From Balneolaceae bacterium (GTDB lineage Bacteria > Bacteroidota > Rhodothermia > Balneolales > Balneolaceae), in contig JAEPQE010000003.1 in the NCBI GenBank assembly GCA_017640665.1, positions 1 through 64,000 of the forward strand: 64,000 nt of DNA. The letters are read 5' to 3'. Below the pieces are notes generated by a model. It was not told where the DNA came from. It worked only from the letters and a program-made list of their open reading frames with translations, and made no database searches. Shown in pieces: positions 1,341-15,793 of this stretch (positions within the stretch are counted from its first letter, which is position 1; the number at the start of each line of letters is the position of its first letter). The translations under genes and the position numbers were made by a program.

Positions 1341-1782
1341 ATACAAAAATGTAGCACTAATCATCGGATTTATTTTTTGTTTGCCGTTAATTATTACGAG
1401 CCAAACTTATGCACAATCAGAATCTGATGATCTAAATAAGTTCATTCCTGATAATAGCATTGAGAGAAATCTGCAATTCATGTATGTGAACAGACCGGTC
1501 CGGAAAGAGATGTTTGAAGAGCTTAATAAGAAAGAAAGAGAGGTGATTCCCAGACATTTTAATTATCTCAAAATGTTGAGAGAGAAAGGAATCTTAATTC
1601 TTGCCGGTCCAAATCTTGATAACACTTTTGGGGTTGTAATATTCTTTGCTTCGTCTGAGGAAGAGGCTAAAGATATTATGAATAATGATCCTGCTATCAG
1701 AGAAGAAATAATGGAAGCAGAATTACATCCGTTCAGAGTGTCGTTGATGTACGATTTTGAAACCTTTGGGCAAAAAAATTAA
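1333..1782 (+). CDS. Exported YCII-related domain protein
   Basis: A 149-residue protein with an N-terminal signal peptide (hydrophobic residues 8-24, cleavage probably after TYAQ) followed by a YCII-like ferredoxin fold. The second half, with ILAGP, GVVIFFASSEEEA and the ND-P-A...A-LHPFRV pattern, fits the YCII family, small alpha/beta proteins most of which are cytosolic and of unknown or proposed enzymatic function. Export is therefore unusual. The gene overlaps the upstream membrane-protein gene by 8 bases, and its stop overlaps the convergent stop of the LytTR regulator gene. Substrate and role are unknown. Confidence 0.7.
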   Translation: MIKYKNVALIIGFIFCLPLIITSQTYAQSESDDLNKFIPDNSIERNLQFMYVNRPVRKEMFEELNKKEREVIPRHFNYLKMLREKGILILAGPNLDNTFGVVIFFASSEEEAKDIMNNDPAIREEIMEAELHPFRVSLMYDFETFGQKN

Positions 1783-2561
1783 ATACCTAAGTTTTCCAAA
1801 ATATCAGCTTTGTAAGTTTTGCTAATTCTGAAAGTTCTACCGTCATTCATTTTAAGCTCATAATCCCCATACCCAACACTTATTAGTTCTTTTATAAAAT
1901 CCATATTTATTATGGTTGAGCGATGAATGCGCTTGAATTTATCTGAGGGAAGTTCTTTAATCAAATTTGTTAATGACTCCCTGACCAAGTGCTTTTGTTT
2001 ATCGATATAAATCTCTGCATAGTAACCAGAAGCAGATATATAATTGATTTCATAAACGTCTATAAAATACACCCGGTTCGATATTTTTATCGGAATTTTT
2101 TTTAAGTCTTCATTTTTTTTCAAACTTTCGATGTACTCAATAAGAGACTTTAATTGCAGAGAATTTAATTGAGTGGAATCTTCAACACGGGTAATTTCTT
2201 CCTCGATAATTCTCTTTATTACTTTTATAAAACGCTCGTCTTTGAAAGGTTTAAGCAGATAATCATAAGCTAAAGCTTCAAATGCTCTTACAGCATACTG
2301 ATCATACGCTGTAGTAAATATTATTCTTGTTGGCTTTGATAAATTGACCTTTTCAAGAAGATCAAAAGCATTCTTATCTTTAAGCTGGATATCAAGAAAT
2401 ACAATATCAAACTGATACTGACTTAACTTTGTAAAAGCATCTTCAAAGTTTGAAGCTTCTATAATACTATTGAAGATATCGAAATTCTTTTGAAGCAGGC
2501 CTTTGATTCTATTACGAGCCGGTAGCTCATCTTCAACGATAATTGCTTTCAAATCCTTCAT
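1779..2561 (-). CDS. LytTR-family response regulator
   Basis: A 260-residue cytoplasmic regulator. Residues 1-120 form a receiver domain with the acidic pair Glu10/Asp11, phospho-acceptor Asp57 in FLDIQL, and the conserved Lys104 in LLKPF. Residues 155-258 form a LytTR DNA-binding domain (YFIDVYEINYISA...HLVRESL...FKRIHRSTIIN). Such regulators bind paired direct repeats upstream of their targets. The start overlaps the kinase gene stop by 4 bases, so the pair is translationally coupled with the kinase first. The likely targets, by position, are the operon beginning at 3809 and perhaps the genes at 930-1782. Confidence 0.93.
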   Translation of the reverse strand: MKDLKAIIVEDELPARNRIKGLLQKNFDIFNSIIEASNFEDAFTKLSQYQFDIVFLDIQLKDKNAFDLLEKVNLSKPTRIIFTTAYDQYAVRAFEALAYDYLLKPFKDERFIKVIKRIIEEEITRVEDSTQLNSLQLKSLIEYIESLKKNEDLKKIPIKISNRVYFIDVYEINYISASGYYAEIYIDKQKHLVRESLTNLIKELPSDKFKRIHRSTIINMDFIKELISVGYGDYELKMNDGRTFRISKTYKADILENLGI

Positions 2562-3655
2562 ATTCTCCCTTTATTTCCATCAATTATTGGGATATGTATC
2601 TCAGTTTTAACTCCGGATTTCCCTGAGTCAATCTTGAAAATAAACTCATTTTCATAGATCGCTTTAAGTCTTGTTAAAACATTTGTTAATCCAATTCCAG
2701 GTTTAATACTATCCTTAGTTATGTTTGCTATGCCGTTATCAGCAATAATAATTTGGATCATAGTTGGGCTAAGTGAAGCGATTCTTACTTCAATATTAAA
2801 AATACCAGCCCTGCTTTTATTAAATCCATGGATCAGAGAATTCTCTACAATCGGCTGTAGAAGTAAGTTTGGTATTAATCTCTCTTTTAAATGCTGATCT
2901 ACTTCGATATTAATCATTAAAGAGTCTGAAAATCTTGTTTTTTCAATGTCCAGATATCTTTTTAAAAAAGAGAGTTCTTCCTCAATAGTCACAAATTTTT
3001 TGTTTGACGTTTCTAATAACCTTCGCAATAGATAGCTCAAGTCAACAACCATATCTTTAGCTTGTTTTGGGTTTGAGTCTATCAAAGAGACAACAGTGTT
3101 GAGTGAGTTGAATAATAAATGAGGATTAAGCTGGGATCGCAATCCTTCCAGCTTAGTTTCCAGATATTTAGACTGGAGCTCCAGATTTTCCAGTTTCTGA
3201 ACTCTTGTTTTGTCGTAAAAGTGAATCGAATATGCGGCAATAGACATTAAGAAATAAGAAGAAACAGACGCTTTTATAAAACCTAAATAACTTTGATTTA
3301 AAACATCATTTAAAACCAAGAAAAATTGGTTTAGCGTTCTTATCTGCTCAAATATTGCAAAGGTTAGAATTGCTACTGTAAATGTAAGTACAAAGAGTAA
3401 ACTGATATTAAGTACATGCAACGAAATCTGTAGAGGTAGGTCTCTGAAAGAGTACTTATATCTTTCAATGAGTTTTAATAGGATGTAGATAACTATTATT
3501 CCGGCAACGAATTGAAGAAAACCTGAAATTATGATCTGGGAAGGAGGTCTTAAATCTTCAACACCTCGTAGCCAGTAAAAATTCTCGATTACGCTAAAAA
3601 CTTTAGCCAGAAACCAAATAAAGAGTAAAGCACCAAATTTTTTATTGAATGACAT
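2558..3655 (-). CDS. LytS-type membrane sensor histidine kinase
   Basis: A 365-residue sensor kinase with about four membrane helices in residues 8-145, a short coiled linker (about 150-172), and a His_kinase domain whose phospho-acceptor is His179 in the box QLNPHLLFNSLN. The usual box has PHFLFN; here the Phe is Leu. An ATPase domain follows, with LLLQPIVENSLIHG and a DNG box (ADNGIA) binding ATP. There is no large external sensor domain, so the signal is probably sensed within the membrane. It forms an operon with the LytTR regulator (4-base overlap) and is transcribed away from the exported-protein operon starting 153 bases to its right. Confidence 0.93.
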   Translation of the reverse strand: MSFNKKFGALLFIWFLAKVFSVIENFYWLRGVEDLRPPSQIIISGFLQFVAGIIVIYILLKLIERYKYSFRDLPLQISLHVLNISLLFVLTFTVAILTFAIFEQIRTLNQFFLVLNDVLNQSYLGFIKASVSSYFLMSIAAYSIHFYDKTRVQKLENLELQSKYLETKLEGLRSQLNPHLLFNSLNTVVSLIDSNPKQAKDMVVDLSYLLRRLLETSNKKFVTIEEELSFLKRYLDIEKTRFSDSLMINIEVDQHLKERLIPNLLLQPIVENSLIHGFNKSRAGIFNIEVRIASLSPTMIQIIIADNGIANITKDSIKPGIGLTNVLTRLKAIYENEFIFKIDSGKSGVKTEIHIPIIDGNKGRI

Positions 3656-3808
3656 ATATAAATTTAAGCTTAAAATACTCTCTGAATTGATGTTTTAATT
3701 CAAATATTAAGCACTTCGATTCATTATAGAGCAATTTGAAAAACTAAGGATTTTATCAGCTTTTTTAAATTTCAAACTTATTCTATATCGATTAACAAAT
3801 AGCTTAGT

Positions 3809-5638
3809 TTGAAAATATTATTTACTACAACGTTTGCCATTTTTGTTTGCATCATCAATGTATCAGGTCAAAATGCATCAATAAGTTTTATAAAGTCATC
3901 AAATTTTATCGGTAATGGTGGAATTTCAGGAGGAGTAGCATGGGTCGATTTCGAAGAGGATAATTATCCTGAACTTATCTTTACAAACTGGGGACTACAA
4001 AAAAACCATTTCTACAGTAATGAAGATGGAGCACTGGTTTTCGGCTACCTGTCTCCGATAGAAGGTAATTATTCGGGAATCGCAATCGCTGATCTTGATG
4101 CCGATGGTATTGAGGATATTTTGACCGCTACACAACAAAATCAGAGTAATTATATATTTACTCTAAGTAAAGGGGAGTATGTATTAAGCAATAAGTTTTC
4201 GGAGTTAGATAATTCATTTGGGGATTCATATTCAGTTTCTGTATTTGATGCTGAAAATGATGGAGATTTAGAAATATTCTATGCCAATGGCCTATTTCAA
4301 CCGGATTTCTTTTTTAGAAAAACCTACAACGGTTTCATAAAAGGTAATGAAGGTATCCTGAATGGAACCAGCGCATCATTTGGGGTGTCTTCAGCAGACA
4401 TTAATTCTGATGGATATCAGGATATTTTTGTAGCCAAAAAGGGAGTCGCTCCAAATCAGATACTCATAAACAAAAAAAATGGAGACTTTGAATTACTTAC
4501 TGATAGAGCATTCTTAAAAGATATTGGAAACTCTAATGGTGGCACATGGTGTGATCTGGATAATGATAATGACTTAGATTTATTCGTTGCCAACGGTGGG
4601 TTCCAGGGAGGTGGTGAGATTGATTTTCTTTACGTAAATGAAGGGAATTTCAATCTAAAGCGTTTATTTGTTGAAGGCCTTACTGAACAAAACTATAATT
4701 CAATGTCAGCTACTTGTGCAGACTTTGATAATGATGGTTTTATGGATCTTTTTGTAAGCAGGTATAAAAGTACACCCATACTATATAGAAACATTGGGGG
4801 ATGGAATTTTAAAGTAGTTGATATTAATGCTTTTCGGGAAGATCCAACTTATGCTACAGGAAACGCCGTTGGTGATTATGACTTCGACGGTGATTTGGAC
4901 ATTGCCATAGCAAACTGGGAGAACTTGAATAATGAAGTTTTTGAAAATACTTCAGCTCCCAATAACTGGATCCGATTCAGACTGGAGGGTACTGAGTCTA
5001 ATGTGAATGGAATTGGTACTCAGCTAACTCTTTATACTCAAAAAGGTCATCAGTTTCGAGAGATAGTTAGTTCACATGGATTCAGAAGTCAGAGTGAGTA
5101 CTCAGCTCAGGGTCATTTCGGTCTTAGTGATTTGAATATAATAGACTCCGTAAAGATTAAGTGGCCATCCGGTGAAACCACACATCTGCAAAATCTTTCT
5201 GTAAATCTTGTTTATACGATTACTGAAGGGAGAGGAATTCAAAAAAAAACAGCTCCCTCAACGGTAGAACATTTTTCGACTGGTTTAATAATCGAAAAGC
5301 TGAGTACGGATGGAATAGAGTCACTAAGTGCAGAGATTTCATCGAAGCCGGAGTCCTTTGAACTACAAGCTCTTCTTGATGCAGGTATCACAATTGGGGG
5401 GGTGGGGAATGTTATGGAAGCGAAAGGAATATTCAACAAGGCTAGTGAACTTTATCCGAAATCTTCAGAAGCGATTTTTTGGATTGCCTTTATCGATTCC
5501 TTAATCGGGCAAAATCAACAGGCAAAAGAGGGATTCAAACTAAGCCTGAAGTTAGTAAAGAAAGACCCATACCCTACAAAATTAAAAAGAGAAGAAATTA
5601 TTAACACATCAAATTATGAGCTGTCGAAGATTAAATAA
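3809..5638 (+). CDS. Secreted FG-GAP/VCBS repeat protein with ASPIC/UnbV domain (CRTAC1-like)
   Basis: A 609-residue exported protein. The first 20 residues form a signal peptide ending VSGQ. A beta-propeller of FG-GAP/VCBS blades follows, marked by calcium-binding DxDxDG-type loops (for example DLDADGIED at 95-103, DINSDGYQD, DLDNDNDLD, DFDNDGFMD, DYDFDGDLD). Residues about 390-475 match the ASPIC/UnbV domain (NNWIRFRLEG to IKWPSG). The last 80 residues resemble one or two TPR helices. The family is extracellular; its biochemical role is largely unknown. The start is TTG, chosen because it begins the signal peptide directly. The next gene overlaps by 23 bases. Confidence 0.88.
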   Translation: MKILFTTTFAIFVCIINVSGQNASISFIKSSNFIGNGGISGGVAWVDFEEDNYPELIFTNWGLQKNHFYSNEDGALVFGYLSPIEGNYSGIAIADLDADGIEDILTATQQNQSNYIFTLSKGEYVLSNKFSELDNSFGDSYSVSVFDAENDGDLEIFYANGLFQPDFFFRKTYNGFIKGNEGILNGTSASFGVSSADINSDGYQDIFVAKKGVAPNQILINKKNGDFELLTDRAFLKDIGNSNGGTWCDLDNDNDLDLFVANGGFQGGGEIDFLYVNEGNFNLKRLFVEGLTEQNYNSMSATCADFDNDGFMDLFVSRYKSTPILYRNIGGWNFKVVDINAFREDPTYATGNAVGDYDFDGDLDIAIANWENLNNEVFENTSAPNNWIRFRLEGTESNVNGIGTQLTLYTQKGHQFREIVSSHGFRSQSEYSAQGHFGLSDLNIIDSVKIKWPSGETTHLQNLSVNLVYTITEGRGIQKKTAPSTVEHFSTGLIIEKLSTDGIESLSAEISSKPESFELQALLDAGITIGGVGNVMEAKGIFNKASELYPKSSEAIFWIAFIDSLIGQNQQAKEGFKLSLKLVKKDPYPTKLKREEIINTSNYELSKIK

Positions 5639-7145
5639 AACAGCCTGGGCACTTTTTATTCTATGTTTGCCAGGAAATTCAATTCAAACTAAATCCCAGG
5701 AAATATCCTTAAAAGGAGACTGGATTGGGCATTATGAATTATTGGGAACGAAATATTTCTCATTTTTATCGATTGATTTAGAAGGGAATGTTTCAATAAG
5801 AAGTCCTCATGATGTTGAAGAATTGAATGCAGAGCTGTTTTTGGAACAGGCTGTTCCCTTGATTGGAATAGCAAAAAGAGGAAAAACCCTTCTCCTAAGA
5901 CCCACAGATATTGATCAAAATAAAGTGAAGGGAAGAGTAATATCAAGCGAGGCAGAGGGAGAGTTTGTATTCTTTAAAAGAGCGGTACGGTTACCCTTAA
6001 ACAAGCAGCATCAGTACCTTGGGTATTACAAAACTAAAAATGGAATCTTCAAAGTATGGAACAGGTATGATACCTTCCGGGTTTATTCCTACTTAACCCA
6101 AACTATTTCGCCCCTTTATGCTATTTCTGATGGGCGGTTTTATACAGATGAAGGTGAGGTAATTGAGTTTGATTTAGAAGATAGTTCACTAACATGGAGC
6201 TACCCTAATCAAGCCAAAGTTAAGGCTGAAAGGTTTACACCCTATGAAATTGAGGAAATTAGTTTGAAGAGCGGAGTCGTTACTCTTGCCTGTTCATATT
6301 ACTCTTCAAAAGTAACTGAAGATGTATCAGCAGTGGTTTTATTACCTGGTGGAGGTAATCTTGATAGGGAAAATTACAGACTCGAAGCTGAAATTTTTGG
6401 AGCAAATGGAATCTCATCAATATTGTGCGATAAAAGAGGTACGGGAAAAAGTACGGGTAATAGTGTAAACGTGAAGTTTACTGAATTGGTAAATGATGCA
6501 ATTGCACAGTATGAGTATCTAAAAAAAAGAGTTGATATAAGTAATAGAAAAATTGGTTTCCGGGGGCCTAGTCAGGGCGGAAGGATTGCAATAATGGCAG
6601 GTGCGAATGTCGAGAATGAAGCATTCGTAATTGCTACTTCTGCTCCCATAATGACAATGAAAGAAGGACAGATATATGCAAATTTAGAATATGCCAGAAA
6701 TTTAGGAGTGCCGGAGACAATAGCAGTTGAGGTAGCTTATATCTGGAGCCAGTATTACGACCAGTTTCTTACAGGAGTTATAAAGGAAGAACTTGTTGAA
6801 AAAGTAAATGCTGTTAGAAATAGATATCCTTCTTTGCATTTACCACCCGGAACAACCCGGTTGCCAGCAGGAATAGAATCAGTAAATATTCTGGATGATA
6901 CATCAACGTACCTGAGCAAAGTAAATGCCCCAATTCTGTTTCAGTATGGTGCTAATGATGACCGAGTTTCTCCAAGAGGGAGCATAAGTAAGATCAACGA
7001 AGCGTTAAGTCAAACTGAATCTGACTTTCTCATTCTGGAATATAAGAATGCTAATCATTCCCTTATGCTTCCCGGCTTTAAAATAGCATCTGGAATATTT
7101 ATGGATCAGATTAAATGGATAAAACAAAAGGTAGACATAGAATGA
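5616..7145 (+). CDS. Exported alpha/beta hydrolase with N-terminal beta domain
   Basis: A 509-residue protein with a signal peptide (about residues 8-28). Residues 30-210 form a beta-rich domain (begins LKGDWIGHYELLG, then a GYY-type repeat) that I cannot name. From about 215 comes an alpha/beta hydrolase fold with nucleophile Ser319 in GPSQGG, probable acid Asp448 or Asp449 in GANDDR, and His481 in NANHS. The oxyanion stretch is LLPGGGNLDREN and RGTGKS lies after it, as in bacterial serine esterases and thioester hydrolases. It is coupled to both neighbours (23-base overlap upstream, ATGA overlap downstream). The substrate is unknown; esterase or peptidase activity is possible. Confidence 0.82.
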   Translation: MSCRRLNKTAWALFILCLPGNSIQTKSQEISLKGDWIGHYELLGTKYFSFLSIDLEGNVSIRSPHDVEELNAELFLEQAVPLIGIAKRGKTLLLRPTDIDQNKVKGRVISSEAEGEFVFFKRAVRLPLNKQHQYLGYYKTKNGIFKVWNRYDTFRVYSYLTQTISPLYAISDGRFYTDEGEVIEFDLEDSSLTWSYPNQAKVKAERFTPYEIEEISLKSGVVTLACSYYSSKVTEDVSAVVLLPGGGNLDRENYRLEAEIFGANGISSILCDKRGTGKSTGNSVNVKFTELVNDAIAQYEYLKKRVDISNRKIGFRGPSQGGRIAIMAGANVENEAFVIATSAPIMTMKEGQIYANLEYARNLGVPETIAVEVAYIWSQYYDQFLTGVIKEELVEKVNAVRNRYPSLHLPPGTTRLPAGIESVNILDDTSTYLSKVNAPILFQYGANDDRVSPRGSISKINEALSQTESDFLILEYKNANHSLMLPGFKIASGIFMDQIKWIKQKVDIE

Positions 7146-7774
7146 GATTAGAGAGTCATATTTTATTTCTTGTACTTTTTGTGGTGAACTTTTCAAGTTG
7201 CACACCAAAGGAGGATACAGCAGGAAAGCCAGCTACAACAGTAGATTACACCGATCGGCCCGGTTTTACAGAAATCCAAAGTCCAGGAGATGGTCATGAA
7301 ATTCTCAATAATTTGGAAGGTTCCTGGTACAAGTCGGGATCTGGTTATCTCCCAAGTGCAAGTGGCCCAACCCCAACGGCTGGAACCGCCAAAGGTCAAT
7401 GGATTTTAAAAGGCAATTTTTTTGAATGGAGGGAAGAATCCTGGCCAATTACTGATTCAACAAGGGTTTCAGAATCCATCTACCATTTCGGGTACGACAA
7501 TCTGAGACAAATGTATGTATTGTGGATTATGAGCACCGAATCAGTTATGACTCAATACTTGATCGGAAAATCTGAAGCCGAAAATCAGCTTACATTTCGC
7601 AGAACATCGATTATCAGCTATAAAAGGAAAGAGATAGCCTTCCATGTAAGGCTTGTGATTAATTTTTCAGATGAAAACTCATTAATAATGGAATACTTCG
7701 AGCAGTGGGATGCTCTGGAGGTCAACAATGGAAAAGAATTTCAACTGTGGAGAAATGAATTCACAAAAAATTGA
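7142..7774 (+). CDS. DUF1579-like lipoprotein
   Basis: The start is taken at 7142, where ATGA overlaps the stop of the hydrolase gene, because the resulting product begins with a clean lipoprotein signal ending FSSC (Cys20); an in-frame ATG at 7115 would add nine charged residues in front. The 210-residue product then shows the pattern of DUF1579: LEGSW, KGQWILKGNFFEW, YHFGYDN...YVLWIMST, and an FQLWRNEFTK-like end. The fold is a small lipocalin-like barrel of unknown function. The next gene starts 3 bases later, so this is an internal operon member, presumably held in the outer or inner membrane by its lipid. Confidence 0.75.
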   Translation: MRLESHILFLVLFVVNFSSCTPKEDTAGKPATTVDYTDRPGFTEIQSPGDGHEILNNLEGSWYKSGSGYLPSASGPTPTAGTAKGQWILKGNFFEWREESWPITDSTRVSESIYHFGYDNLRQMYVLWIMSTESVMTQYLIGKSEAENQLTFRRTSIISYKRKEIAFHVRLVINFSDENSLIMEYFEQWDALEVNNGKEFQLWRNEFTKN

Positions 7775-7777
7775 ATT

Positions 7778-9067
7778 ATGAATTTACTTAAGTATTTATT
7801 CCTGTGTGCATTATCGATCATTTCCACAGATCTATTCTCTCAAGTGGAAGTAGATATAGAATACGATCCATCTCTGGAAAAAAAAGCATATCTAAAAGGT
7901 AGTGGTCCAACTATTTGTATTGATAATGCTCATGGAAACTATCATACCCTGGAGGGTAGTTTTGCTCCTTTTGGAAGGCTTTTTGAAGCAGATGGATACA
8001 AGTTGGTTTCGTATTCTGAGAAGTTTACTCACGAAGCTTTAAATAAATGCCGAATTCTTGTCATTGCTAATCCCCTACATCCGTCTGACGCAGGAGAATG
8101 GGTAGTTCCTAACCCGTCCGCATTTGATCAAAGAGAAATTCAGAAGCTCAATAAATGGGTGGAACATGGTGGGAGGCTTCTTCTTATTGCAGATCACATG
8201 CCTTTTGCGGGTGCTGCTGCTGATCTGGCATCTTCTTTTGGATATGAATTTATTAACGGTTTCGAGCAGAAAGATGGAAATCACTGGCCTCCTGCTGAGT
8301 TCAAAACCGAAAACAATACGTTGAGGCAGAATGCAATAACAAAAGGTATCAACGATGAAGATACTATCTCAATGGTTGCTACTTTTACAGGTTCCGCATT
8401 TAAAGGATCTGAAGAATCGGAACCTTTATTAGTTTTTCCTTCGGAATATTATGCCTTAACACCTGATACAGCCTGGAGATTTAATGAAAGAACTCCAAGG
8501 CAAAGATTGGAAGGTTGGCTGCAGGGAGCCTATCAGAATTATGGAAGCGGGAAATTAGTGGTTTTAGGAGAGGCAGCCATGCTAACTGCACAAACAGTAA
8601 ATAACTTTAAAATGGGTATGAGTTCTCCAAGAGCTCCTGAAAATCAGCAATTCGCATTGAATGTCATTCATTGGCTGGATGGAGTAGATGAATACGTATC
8701 TGCAAAAGAAATAATAGTAGGATTAAATGAAGAATTAGTTGAAGTATTTAATTCAGGAGAATATGCAAGGCTTGCGGAGTTCTACACAGAAGATGCCAGA
8801 ATTATGGGACCAAATAATCAGGTGGTGGAAGGAAAAGATGCAATATTAAATTATTGGAAATCATTGGAAGGAAGAGGAGTAAGTTGGGAATTAAAAGTTT
8901 TAGATGTTGAGGAACGTGAAGATTTAATTATACAGATAGGCATTTCTAGATTAGGGGTTAGAAATAATGGATCCACTAATATCTTCAATACGAAGTTTTT
9001 ACTTCACTGGGAACTTGAAGATGGCAGCTATAAAATTTCTATGGATTTTTACCAACCATATCGTTGA
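7778..9067 (+). CDS. Exported DUF4350-like (GATase-like fold) protein fused to NTF2-like domain
   Basis: A 429-residue protein with a signal peptide ending DLFSQ. Residues about 40-290 look like a DUF4350/ThuA-like class I amidotransferase fold: ICIDNAHGNYHT, LVIANPLHPSD, a WVEHGGRLLLIADHMPF strand-turn and KLVVLGEAAML. The expected catalytic Cys of true amidotransferases is not evident, so it may be a binding domain. Residues about 310-429 form an NTF2/SnoaL/DUF4440-like domain (FNSGEYARLAEFYTEDA, VVEGKDAILNYWKSL). The fusion joins a possible sugar or ligand-binding unit to a small alpha/beta cone. It lies in the coupled operon, 3 bases after the lipoprotein and overlapping the next gene at TTGA. 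Confidence 0.7.
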   Translation: MNLLKYLFLCALSIISTDLFSQVEVDIEYDPSLEKKAYLKGSGPTICIDNAHGNYHTLEGSFAPFGRLFEADGYKLVSYSEKFTHEALNKCRILVIANPLHPSDAGEWVVPNPSAFDQREIQKLNKWVEHGGRLLLIADHMPFAGAAADLASSFGYEFINGFEQKDGNHWPPAEFKTENNTLRQNAITKGINDEDTISMVATFTGSAFKGSEESEPLLVFPSEYYALTPDTAWRFNERTPRQRLEGWLQGAYQNYGSGKLVVLGEAAMLTAQTVNNFKMGMSSPRAPENQQFALNVIHWLDGVDEYVSAKEIIVGLNEELVEVFNSGEYARLAEFYTEDARIMGPNNQVVEGKDAILNYWKSLEGRGVSWELKVLDVEEREDLIIQIGISRLGVRNNGSTNIFNTKFLLHWELEDGSYKISMDFYQPYR

Positions 9068-11307
9068 AATACATAAGGACAGCTAAATTGAAATTTGTTT
9101 TATGTCTGCTTTTCTGTTTTAGTTTACTAATCCCTTTCAGCGTAAAGGTGTCAGCTCAGAAACGCTCTCCAATAGAATTACAGAAGTTAGATTCCCCTCC
9201 TAATTTAGATGGCAAAGTTCAAGACTCAGAGTGGGAGAATATTATTCCACTGGATTTATCCATGTTGTTTCCGGAGTATAATGGCACCCCAACAGAAAAG
9301 ACTGAAATACGAATCGCATATACTAAGGATTATATCTGGGCTTCAATCAGAGCTTACGATAACTCGCCAGAACTGATCCGAATAAACTCACTCTATCGTG
9401 ATAGAGATAGCGGAGATGATACTTTTTCTGTAATTATTGATTCATTCAATAGTAATGAAACGGCAATGCAGTTTAAAGTAAACCCGGCTGGGGTCAGAAT
9501 GGATCAATTGATTCTCAATGATGCTGAGCCAGGAAGAGGAACCATAGTAAACAGAGATTGGAATGCTTTTTGGGATGCAGAAGCGAGTAGTAATGAAACA
9601 GGATGGTTTGCAGAGTTGAGAATTCCTTTTTCAACATTGCGTTTTAAAGCTGGGGAAGGCGAGCCAGTAATTATGGGCATCAGATCTTTTAGATGGATTC
9701 CAAGAAAAGGGGAGAATCAAATATTTCCCCTTACATCTCCGAATGAAGCCTCCATGCCCTGGCTTAAGCCATCACTAGATCAGGACTTTGTTCTTGAGGA
9801 TGTGGAATCAAGTACCCCGGTTTTTATTACACCATATATTACAACCGGCTTAGGCTATAATTATCAATTCAATATTGATAATAACGATTACGAAAGAGTC
9901 AGATCTGAGGAGTTTAAACTAGGTGGAGACATAAAGTATAGTGTCAGCTCCGGACTTACTGCTGATCTAACAGTAAATACAGATTTTGCTCAGGTTGAAG
10001 CTGATGATCAGCAACTTAATGTTGGCAGGTTTTCGTTATTCTTTCCTGAGAAAAGACCATTTTTTCAAGAGCGGTCAGATATCTTTGCGTTTAGTACGGG
10101 GGGGACAACAAGACTTTTTTATAGTAGAAGGATTGGTTTAGGTGCTGATGGACAGCCTATTAGGATTTATGGTGGCGCCAGAATTGCTGGTGATTTCTCA
10201 GGAAATGACCTTGGCATATTAACTATGCAAACAAAAGACGAAAGAGGTATCCCATCTGAAAATTTTGGAGTTTTCAGAGTTCGAAAACAGGTTATAAATC
10301 AAGGTTCCAATTTAGGTGGGATATACACACACAGAATTTCTTCAGACGGAGATTACAATATAGCCTACGGAATTGATGCAAATATAATGACGGGAGTAAG
10401 AAACCAATTAGCGATCAGATGGGCACAAACTTTCGATCATGAGTTATCAAATGGGTTAAAATCTGGTCGTTTATTAGCCAGATTCGAGAAAATCGGAAGG
10501 GAAGGATTCCTTTATAACACTGAATTCGTTTGGTCAGGGAAAGAATATTTTCCGGAGGTTGGTTTTACTGCAGCCAATGATTTTTACGGCGGGATTACTA
10601 ACTTTATATATGGATGGGTTCCTGATAATTCTTTTTATAGAATTGCTGGTTCCAGGGTTGGGTTCTTTACCAGAGTCAGAAATGTTACAAACGTTCTCGA
10701 ATATCTGAATATTCATAATGCATGGTATTATACAGCATCCAACAATTCACAAGGAGAGTTAAGGGTAAATTATATCTATGAAGACCTGCCAAGAGATTTA
10801 ACTATAGCAAGAGCTGTATCAGTCCCTGCCGGATCGTACGAATTCTCCAATATTTCAGCTCGTTACAGAAGCGCATCCGGTAAACATATAACGCTAAATA
10901 CTTCTGCTAATATCGGGAGTTTTTACGATGGGCATCGCGCGTTTGTATCCGGATCACCTATTTGGAATATGAATTCACATTTAGAGTTAGGCATAGAATA
11001 TTTGTATAACAGAATTCGGTTTCTAAAAAGAGATCAGTTACTTAACAGCCATATTTTAAGAGCAAGGATAAATCTCGCGTTGAACAAAAAATTATCGGTA
11101 GAAAGTTATTCTCAGTATAACAGTATCAATGAGAAGGCACTGGTAAACCTTCGTATTCGCCATAATTTCTCAGAGGGGCATGACCTGTATATTGTTTTAA
11201 ATGGCGATTTAAATATGGTATCAAATGATGGAATTAGTGGGTCAACATTACCTGCTTCCGAAAGAGGGATATTTCTTGTTAAATATAATCGCACATTCTT
11301 TCGCTAG
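9064..11307 (+). CDS. DUF5916 outer-membrane protein with CBM9-like N-terminal domain
   Basis: A 747-residue protein. Residues 1-32 form a signal peptide ending VSAQ. Residues about 35-240 match the carbohydrate-binding family 9-like/DOMON domain (SPPNLDGKVQDSEWENI, then WFAELRIPFSTLRF and MGIRSFRWIPR). From about 250 to the end there is a DUF5916 beta-barrel with alternating amphipathic strands, the FFPEKRPFFQERSDIF motif and a terminal aromatic strand ending FFR, as in outer-membrane barrels. The start is TTG within a TTGA overlap with the upstream stop; no ATG occurs for the next 85 residues. Some family neighbours include exported peptidases, but the function is unknown. Confidence 0.88.
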   Translation: MKYIRTAKLKFVLCLLFCFSLLIPFSVKVSAQKRSPIELQKLDSPPNLDGKVQDSEWENIIPLDLSMLFPEYNGTPTEKTEIRIAYTKDYIWASIRAYDNSPELIRINSLYRDRDSGDDTFSVIIDSFNSNETAMQFKVNPAGVRMDQLILNDAEPGRGTIVNRDWNAFWDAEASSNETGWFAELRIPFSTLRFKAGEGEPVIMGIRSFRWIPRKGENQIFPLTSPNEASMPWLKPSLDQDFVLEDVESSTPVFITPYITTGLGYNYQFNIDNNDYERVRSEEFKLGGDIKYSVSSGLTADLTVNTDFAQVEADDQQLNVGRFSLFFPEKRPFFQERSDIFAFSTGGTTRLFYSRRIGLGADGQPIRIYGGARIAGDFSGNDLGILTMQTKDERGIPSENFGVFRVRKQVINQGSNLGGIYTHRISSDGDYNIAYGIDANIMTGVRNQLAIRWAQTFDHELSNGLKSGRLLARFEKIGREGFLYNTEFVWSGKEYFPEVGFTAANDFYGGITNFIYGWVPDNSFYRIAGSRVGFFTRVRNVTNVLEYLNIHNAWYYTASNNSQGELRVNYIYEDLPRDLTIARAVSVPAGSYEFSNISARYRSASGKHITLNTSANIGSFYDGHRAFVSGSPIWNMNSHLELGIEYLYNRIRFLKRDQLLNSHILRARINLALNKKLSVESYSQYNSINEKALVNLRIRHNFSEGHDLYIVLNGDLNMVSNDGISGSTLPASERGIFLVKYNRTFFR

Positions 11308-11454
11308 TTATGTTTGAAAGCCCTGTCCCAATTAAGAATAGTTTCAATTAAATCATAAAATCAGCTATTCAAAGCAATTAGATTCATTAAGGCAGCGCCG
11401 GTTAGTATAGTCTGTGATATTGATAAGAACTAAAAAAACAGCCAACCTCATCTC

Positions 11455-11459
11455 AGGAG
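11455..11459 (+). promoter_or_regulatory. Shine-Dalgarno AGGAG that fixes the start of the serine hydrolase
   Basis: AGGAG lies 5 bases before the ATG at 11465. It decides between this ATG, which opens a signal peptide, and an in-frame GTG at 11414 that would put 17 mostly polar residues ahead of it. Confidence 0.6.
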
Positions 11460-11464
11460 CAACA

Positions 11465-13156
11465 ATGAAAAGTCTGAAAACTGTTACATCTGTAATACTG
11501 TTAATCTTTTTCATAAACAATCACTCTTTATTAGCTCTTGAACAGGGGGGAACAAATCCGATAGTAACTGGCAGCAAAGGGGAAGCACTAAATACGTTCT
11601 TCACCAAGCTAGATTTTTTTGGTTTTGGAGGACAGTTATTAATAAAAAATGAGGGAGAAATAATACTTCAAAAGGCTTATGGTTATGCCGATAGATCCGA
11701 GGGTACAAGAGCTGATTTAGCGACTGTTTATTCCATTGCTTCATTAGGAAAACAGTTTACGGCTACAGCAATCTTGAGACTTGAACAAGATGGGAAACTA
11801 AGTACAGATGACACAATTGATAAGTATTTCGATAATCTGGCCGAAGATAAGAAGACCATTACGATCTTAAATCTGCTTACTCATAGTTCAGGCTTGCCAT
11901 ATCATGTCGATTCTAATTTCACTGAAGAAGGAATAACACGTGAGGAACTTGAGCGAAGAATAGTAAATCTTAGCCTTTTATTTGAACCTGGAACGAGCAG
12001 TTCTTATTCCAATCCCGGATATAATCTTTTAGGTTTGATCGTTGAAAAACAATCAGGGAAATCATTTCAAGAGTATCTTATTGAGCAGCTTTTTAAGCCT
12101 GCCGGAATGGAAAACACTTATTTTAGTTCAACTTCTCTGAATGTTAAGGGGGCACATTCGTACAGCGATAATATTGATCATGGTGATGTATCAAAACAGC
12201 CATTTTTTTTAAAATCTCTTGGTGCAGGGGGGCAGCTAAGTACAGTTGAAGACCTTAATAAATGGGAAAAAGCTTTAAGCGAGAATTTGATTCTAAATGA
12301 AGATCAGAGTAGAAAACTAATCACACCGCACTTAAGAAATGAAGCTCTAGGTTGGAGGGTTTTTGAAACAGGCAGAGGCACAAAAGTTGTCTTGCATCCA
12401 GGAGACTTTCAGGGCTTTAACGTTGAATTCAGGAGATACGTAGATGAGTCAAGAACAATCATCTTACTAAGTAATACCCGTGAAAATGCTAATGGGTATA
12501 GAAGGGTGCTGATGAACTTAATCGGGCAATATCTAGAAGGAGAAATAGAACTACCTGAAATTCCTGATTTATATCAGGCAAAAGATTTAAATATTAATAT
12601 AGAAGACTATCAGATTCACTCATCAGATTATAAAATAATCCAGGAAAAGGACGCTTTATTTCTAACATCCGAAACACAGAAAGGTCTTGCAGTATTAAGC
12701 AGTATTCAGGATGAAGAGAGATTAAATCTTTTAAATGAACAGGCGAATGAGTTTTTAAAACTTTTAGAAGTTGAGAAGTTTAGTGAGACTTCGAAGTATC
12801 TGAATAGGAATCTTACGGTGCCTGCGGTAGAAAATACTTGGAGGACTTCTTTGAATTTATTCGAAGAAGAGTTTGGGAGAAAAAGAAATCAGAGACTTAT
12901 TGGTACTTATATCTCAGACGAAATGATGTCATTCAGTTATTTCAAGCTCGAATTCGAAAACGATTCAAAAACGGGGACATTGGTTTGGTTCAGGGATAAG
13001 TTAATTGCTTATCATTTTGGTATTGAATACCCTCTATATAAGAAGCTTGGATTTGACAGGTTTGGGAATCTTTTTAATTACTCAGTGTTCAATAATGATT
13101 TAATCAAAATTGATATTGAAGGTGATATTCAGGAAATAACGGTTTCAAAAAGGTAA
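11465..13156 (+). CDS. Exported serine hydrolase of the beta-lactamase/PBP-like family
   Basis: A 563-residue protein with a signal peptide (hydrophobic residues 8-24). The class C beta-lactamase fold shows the SxxK motif Ser93-Leu-Gly-Lys96, a LLTHSSGLP strand, a tyrosine motif YSNPGYNLLG and HPGDFQGF in place of the KTG-type strand. About 190 further residues after the catalytic domain form a tail (from about 370) of unknown fold. Members hydrolyse esters, D-amino-acid peptides or beta-lactams; the substrate is not visible. The gene follows the DUF5916 gene after a 157-base gap with its own Shine-Dalgarno site, so it may belong to the same transcript or have its own promoter. Confidence 0.87.
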   Translation: MKSLKTVTSVILLIFFINNHSLLALEQGGTNPIVTGSKGEALNTFFTKLDFFGFGGQLLIKNEGEIILQKAYGYADRSEGTRADLATVYSIASLGKQFTATAILRLEQDGKLSTDDTIDKYFDNLAEDKKTITILNLLTHSSGLPYHVDSNFTEEGITREELERRIVNLSLLFEPGTSSSYSNPGYNLLGLIVEKQSGKSFQEYLIEQLFKPAGMENTYFSSTSLNVKGAHSYSDNIDHGDVSKQPFFLKSLGAGGQLSTVEDLNKWEKALSENLILNEDQSRKLITPHLRNEALGWRVFETGRGTKVVLHPGDFQGFNVEFRRYVDESRTIILLSNTRENANGYRRVLMNLIGQYLEGEIELPEIPDLYQAKDLNINIEDYQIHSSDYKIIQEKDALFLTSETQKGLAVLSSIQDEERLNLLNEQANEFLKLLEVEKFSETSKYLNRNLTVPAVENTWRTSLNLFEEEFGRKRNQRLIGTYISDEMMSFSYFKLEFENDSKTGTLVWFRDKLIAYHFGIEYPLYKKLGFDRFGNLFNYSVFNNDLIKIDIEGDIQEITVSKR

Positions 13157-14731: not shown

Positions 14732-15793
14732 TTATATGGTCGTACTTTTTTTCTGACGATATTTTGACGGAGTTAACCCAGTCTCTTTTTTAAAAACAGC
14801 GTTAAAAGTAGATTTGGAATTAAATCCGGAGTCAAACATAATTTCCCCAATTCTGTCTCTCTGATTATTTGGATTAAGCAGCAGTTTTTTTGCATGTTGT
14901 ACCCTGTATGAATTTATAAATTCATAGAAATTCCGTCCCGCTTTTTCATTAATAACTCTTGAGATCTTATAGTTTTTTTCCCCTAACTCCTTAGAAAGGT
15001 CTTCAAGACTTAACTTTTCATTCAGAAATAGTTTTTTCTTATCAATAACTGATTTGAGTTTTTTATATAAAGAATCAATCTCCTTCTGAGATAAAGAGTT
15101 ACCGTCGTACTTTTCTTTTTTTGTGATCAGTAAAAAAGACTTATTAATAGATTTATAGTAGAGATAGCTGATTAGTACGAGAACAGATAAAAAAACAAAG
15201 GTACTTCTCATGTAATGATCCAAATTCTGTAGAGTAGATTCAAACAGCAAAAAAAACAGTACTACTAAAAAGATGGAGATCAAATTTTTAACCCAGTCTA
15301 ATCTGTAATTGTAAATGTTTGAGTAGTTATTCTTTAACTCACTGTGATATTGATTTATCTCCTTAAAGGATAAATACAGGTAAAAGCCTATATGAATAAT
15401 GATAGGAAGGAGGTAGGTCTCATAAATGGAATCATAGATAAACTTATGGAATGGAATGAGGGCTATGAGGATAATAAAAGAGGGAAGAAAGTGTATTTTA
15501 AGATTGTTAAGCTTGCTCTTTAACTCATACATCATTGATATAACAAATAAGTAAATAACAGGTCCATACACGAGTCCAAAAAAAACTCCAAGGTTCCATG
15601 CCTGACTTATCAGATTGTTTGTGATAAGTATGACATTTAAAAAATTGAGTCCAATTACTGCAGTTAAAACCGCTAATAGGATTTTATGGATTTTCTTACT
15701 TTTTGATGATAAAAGTATGGTGGTAAAGAAAAACGAAAGATAGACTATAATGGGAGGGGCAATCTCAAAGGTGTATTCAAAAAGCGATTGCAT
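14732..15793 (-). CDS. AraC-family regulator with N-terminal membrane domain
   Basis: A 353-residue protein. Residues about 10-215 contain six or seven hydrophobic helices, and residues about 245-350 form a two-HTH AraC DNA-binding domain (KLSLEDLSKELGEKNYKIS, IGEIMFDSGFNSKSTFNAVFKKETGLTPSKYR). This membrane-anchored architecture is common in Bacteroidota and lets the regulator respond to a signal in the membrane or periplasm without a partner kinase. It precedes the S41 peptidase gene on the same strand and is the obvious candidate to control it. The ligand is unknown. Confidence 0.9.
   Translation of the reverse strand: MQSLFEYTFEIAPPIIVYLSFFFTTILLSSKSKKIHKILLAVLTAVIGLNFLNVILITNNLISQAWNLGVFFGLVYGPVIYLFVISMMYELKSKLNNLKIHFLPSFIILIALIPFHKFIYDSIYETYLLPIIIHIGFYLYLSFKEINQYHSELKNNYSNIYNYRLDWVKNLISIFLVVLFFLLFESTLQNLDHYMRSTFVFLSVLVLISYLYYKSINKSFLLITKKEKYDGNSLSQKEIDSLYKKLKSVIDKKKLFLNEKLSLEDLSKELGEKNYKISRVINEKAGRNFYEFINSYRVQHAKKLLLNPNNQRDRIGEIMFDSGFNSKSTFNAVFKKETGLTPSKYRQKKSTTI

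Follow-up and report, generated by a model that had tools for sequence, protein, structure and literature searches.

The closest described counterparts of the locus analyzed here are the LytTR/PF06580 two-component systems (TCSs) of Bacteroidota-type genomes, polysaccharide utilization loci, the CRTAC1 / ASPIC-UnbV FG-GAP propellers, and the proteins that carry a GIFT domain (IFT52, GldG). This domain takes its name from GldG and IFT (Beatson and Ponting 2004, as cited in PMC7226087), and sugar binding has been proposed for it (PMC7226087). We compare with these systems a locus near the start of a 64,000-nucleotide stretch of Balneolaceae DNA, the whole of which is referred to below as the window. 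Its H-box PF06580 kinase adjoins a receiver + LytTR regulator and the pair is thus a LytTR TCS, which shares with those of Bacteroidota-type genomes the kinase-regulator overlap (here 4 nt), the H-box, and the receiver and LytTR domains, whereas its regulator sits on a long branch and its kinase has no close orthologue in 59 relatives, the best matches there reaching 28–36% identity. The five-gene operon facing it resembles polysaccharide utilization loci in bringing together an exported hydrolase, envelope proteins, and a local regulator, but it contains no recognised CAZyme and no SusC/SusD pair, Pfam finding neither SusC nor SusD among the operon genes. The observation itself is real, the families are ordinary, and their combination is species-specific.

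The layout of the locus is given in Table 1. The sequence-only reading had described a kinase gene divergent from an FG-GAP/ASPIC gene at a distance of 153 bases, followed by five overlapping or touching forward genes whose products all carry export signals, and this description holds: all ORFs lie at the coordinates it gave, the starts of the kinase gene and of the propeller gene, the latter a TTG, lie at 3655 and 3809, and the junctions read from the sequence are an overlap of 23 nt between the FG-GAP/ASPIC gene end and the gene at 5616, an ATGA at 7142–7145, a spacing of 3 nt (7775–7777), and a TTGA at 9064–9067. The ATGA presupposes the inner start of the DUF1579 lipoprotein gene, at 7142, which is probably the true one, the longest ORF running from 7115. 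N-terminal signals are visible by eye in 5/5 products, that of the hydrolase being the weakest, and Pfam agrees with the families proposed, with the DUF4350 match falling below the Pfam cut-off and the barrel resting on family membership. Where the earlier span began at the kinase, the regulator gene belongs with it. The best reading of the five genes is a translationally coupled envelope operon; the S12-family gene lies 106 nt further downstream, with no terminator detected between it and the DUF5916 gene.

Table 1. Features of the LytTR locus and its surroundings (window coordinates)
Feature	Coordinates	Strand	Remarks
LytTR response regulator	1779..2561	-	receiver + LytTR DNA-binding domain; Pfam Response_reg + LytTR
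PF06580 sensor kinase	2558..3655	-	Pfam His_kinase
Intergenic region between the divergent genes, candidate control region for both	3656..3808	.	153 nt
Exported FG-GAP/ASPIC beta-propeller, CRTAC1-like	3809..5638	+	TTG start
Exported alpha/beta hydrolase, S33/S9-like	5616..7145	+	Pfam Hydrolase_4/S9
DUF1579 probable lipoprotein	7142..7774	+	Pfam DUF1579
Exported DUF4350-like GIFT + DUF4440/SnoaL NTF2-like fusion	7778..9067	+	Pfam DUF4350 (below cut-off) + DUF4440
DUF5916 outer-membrane barrel-type protein	9064..11307	+	TTG start; Pfam DUF5916; barrel by family only
Exported serine beta-lactamase-family (S12) protein, possible further operon member	11414..13156	+	
AraC regulator	14732-15793		

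The comparative evidence bears most directly on the proposal that these genes form one regulated envelope system. With the exception of the regulator, each of the seven proteins was used as a query against the 59 nearest genomes, two congeners included; the DUF4350 protein and the hydrolase were also run against 394 phylum genomes, and the genes around the best matches were retrieved for comparison. The sequence-only reading had named a lack of synteny beyond close relatives as one half of an outcome that would refute it, and this half is what was found: the gene order occurs in no other genome examined, the full cluster being absent from all 59 relatives, both congeners among them, and not seen in the 394 phylum genomes, where it was traced via the hydrolase and the DUF4350 protein. 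Conservation of the full operon is therefore rejected. What recurs is the hydrolase-DUF4350 pair, found in a single genome (G019) with a 17-nt overlap and identities of 34% and 45%, so that these two genes of the operon form a pair seen more than once. The earlier gene calls and families hold, as do the coupling and the divergence; the earlier proposal of one system is not backed by comparative evidence, and because the cluster is found in no other species examined the idea is unproven; on the anatomy of the locus it is plausible.

The same data suit a view in which separately acquired exported proteins were assembled stepwise onto one transcript and share no joint function, the hydrolase and the DUF4350 protein alone being functionally linked. 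Each family occurs by itself in other contexts, no pair other than this one recurs, and the 59 relatives yield no match to the DUF1579 protein; that four junctions in a row overlap tightly and that all five products carry export signals argues against such piecemeal assembly, which we regard as rather unlikely and which is compatible with either view of regulation.

The genomic setting marks the cluster as accessory, since both congeners have other genes in place of 1–17.6 kb of the window, a segment that adjoins a synteny breakpoint and the contig end, and since the GC content is 0.31–0.39 in 1–16 kb as against 0.37–0.43 to the right. The sugar cluster on that side is partly kept in the congeners, at 74–95% identity: a GH130, a symporter, and a ROK gene in both, and a GH1 in the congener G002. 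Such a species-specific, low-GC stretch beside a breakpoint also favors the possibility that the TCS and the five-gene operon are chance neighbours in a gene-acquisition region, the TCS controlling itself or distant genes and the operon being constitutive or otherwise controlled, for example by the AraC regulator. AraC-type regulators are found close to some DUF4350 homologues (L111, L204, L210), of which one belongs to the same genome; this points the same way, while the shared region between the two units, at 153 nt, is short, which does not.

Counts of LytTR pairs fall on both sides of this question. The genome holds 22 LytTR domains, and among its kinase-regulator pairs 9/14 are divergent from their neighbour, compared with 30% of control genes, and 7/14 face an exported protein, compared with 12% of control genes, as judged by a crude signal-peptide heuristic; the enrichment of divergence from an exported gene is significant and weighs against chance neighbours. 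Among the relatives, 5 of 19 LytTR pairs are divergent as against 37% of controls, and this lack of any excess favors chance. Divergence from an exported gene was accordingly rejected as a general LytTR signature, the enrichment not having been replicated in relatives, and because divergence is common in the genome itself and not enriched outside it, we treat adjacency as weak evidence. Particular loci supply further comparisons. In the RR tree the nearest relative of the window regulator within its own genome (96/81, with long branches and an unsure placement) faces an operon whose first gene encodes an exported alpha/beta hydrolase and which contains a polysaccharide deacetylase, and this speaks for control of the operon by the TCS; the second LytTR pair with such a partner is that at 8792–13986 of L148 (G000:C1). 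At 1639–8199 of L135 (G000:C4) lies the second LytTR pair of the genome that faces an FG-GAP/ASPIC operon. The related FG-GAP operon of G023 (L151) opens with a PF00756 esterase and lacks a TCS opposite it, which speaks against such control. Taken as a whole, we would put the odds that the window TCS controls the facing operon at about even, and we hold the chance-neighbour account to be possible, though doubtful.

The motifs of both signaling proteins are intact: the kinase, with a hydrophobic N-terminal membrane part, keeps its NPHLLFN H-box and GIGL, and the regulator keeps its FLDIQ phospho-acceptor motif. Between 3656 and 3808 no LytTR-type direct repeats were found, and no binding site or promoter stands out: TANNTTTG has a match at 3773–3780 (-), the motif being no more frequent in the window than chance, and the Bacteroidota-type promoter motif occurs 71 times in the window, where 68 matches would be expected. 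A different target for the TCS might be sought at the other end of the locus, were it of the SusC/SusD-linked HK-RR kind and its transporter locus lost past the contig edge. Its RR and HK are ~28–38% identical to those of SusC/D-adjacent triads and the partial ORF 2–280, with which the contig opens, resembles SusD on visual inspection, but the 92-aa fragment of that ORF has no Pfam match and runs convergent with the TCS, where the triads examined run same-strand into SusC/D, and we consider this origin very improbable.

Our preferred reading, to which we assign a probability of about 0.5, sees here an accessory, species-specific envelope operon controlled by a LytTR two-component switch of its own. 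On this reading the membrane-embedded kinase would sense a membrane or small-molecule cue and phosphorylate the LytTR regulator, which would bind 3656–3808 and drive one transcript, the products of which would act in the periplasm and at the outer membrane. There the Ca-loop propeller and the GIFT/NTF2 protein may bind an ester- or glycan-type substrate (the nature of which is a guess), the alpha/beta hydrolase may cleave it, and the DUF5916 barrel-type protein may pass or hold it. If this is true, the locus offers a test case for what the numerous LytTR pairs of this genome control, as well as a function for DUF5916, a widespread family.

The individual proteins can be placed with varying precision. 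The FG-GAP/ASPIC protein has Pfam matches to FG-GAP_3 (6 stretches) and UnbV_ASPIC and a PDB match to cartilage acidic protein 1 (9etn, E 7e-15); with FG-GAP repeats, Ca loops, and an ASPIC domain it belongs to the CRTAC1-like FG-GAP/ASPIC class, and it differs from the CRTAC1 / ASPIC-UnbV propellers in being bacterial and in its extra C-terminal region. Its seven DxDxDGxxD-type (Ca-type) loops fit a predicted seven-bladed propeller. The hydrolase has an N-terminal extension and a GPSQG nucleophile elbow at residues 317–321.

A new point concerns the fusion protein, the DUF4350-like domain of which matches the GIFT (IFT52-type) domain at the level of sequence profiles. Its N-terminal 300 residues define an exported family in which D49, H52, N54, D139, and H140 are invariant (17 sequences), and the profile of this family matches the IFT52 N-terminal domain in the PDB (5fmr, E 3e-4; 8bd7, E 0.0018). 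Foldseek likewise ranks 5fmr first (E 1.8e-7), the query being a poor, low-confidence AlphaFold model (mean pLDDT 52) built from two sequences. Unlike IFT52 and GldG, the window protein is exported, fused to an NTF2-like part, and equipped with its own D..H.N / DH motif set. Recognition of DUF4350-like proteins as GIFT-type gives an exported family that lacks annotation a structural point of reference. A bolder and improbable proposal is that the fusion is a new periplasmic sugar-binding or enzymatic protein with a conserved D..H.N.H / DH.P site, which together with the coupled hydrolase and the DUF5916 protein would provide SusCD-independent, LytTR-switched substrate capture. The C-terminal DUF4440/NTF2 part is missing from the aligned homologues bar one, in G116, a genome of another family, where the full fusion recurs once (38% across 435 aa) and follows an AraC regulator. 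In a scan of genome contigs a single distant locus was found, on an Eisenbacteria contig (L130, 6588–9507), in which a DUF1579 protein lies two genes from a DUF4350-like GIFT protein, these being the families adjacent in the window.

A second new point is a conserved arrangement outside the window. In eight genomes (L117–L124; for example G000:C1, about 1180900–1185600) a different LytTR kinase-regulator pair is divergent from a DUF5916 gene beside dnaX-ybaB-recR; in L121 and L124 the contig ends before the dnaX block. As in the window, a TCS faces a DUF5916 gene, but the DUF5916 proteins are only about 25% identical, and the gene comes first there and fifth in the window operon. The dnaX-linked regulators form one 100/100 clade in the RR tree with the window regulator outside it, and on this tree the idea that the window TCS arose by duplication of the dnaX-linked one is rejected. 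The conserved arrangement counts for the preferred reading of the window locus, and the place of the window regulator outside the clade counts against it. This arrangement is the better candidate for a conserved LytTR-DUF5916 system.

The DUF5916 protein of the window matches PF19313 with 65.2 bits against a cut-off of 22.6, and homologues occur in 46 of the 59 relatives, at up to 41% identity and in unrelated contexts; no paper on DUF5916 was found in the literature searched. Its N-terminal part is possibly CBM9-like, its profile matching a CBM9 structure weakly (E 0.0099); Pfam CBM9_1 is present in the L117 paralogue and was not found in the window protein. In five genomes (L165, L166, L167, L169, L170) genes of the window subfamily have an M14 zinc carboxypeptidase gene as a direct or near neighbour, the M14 homologue of L165 being split over two ORFs.
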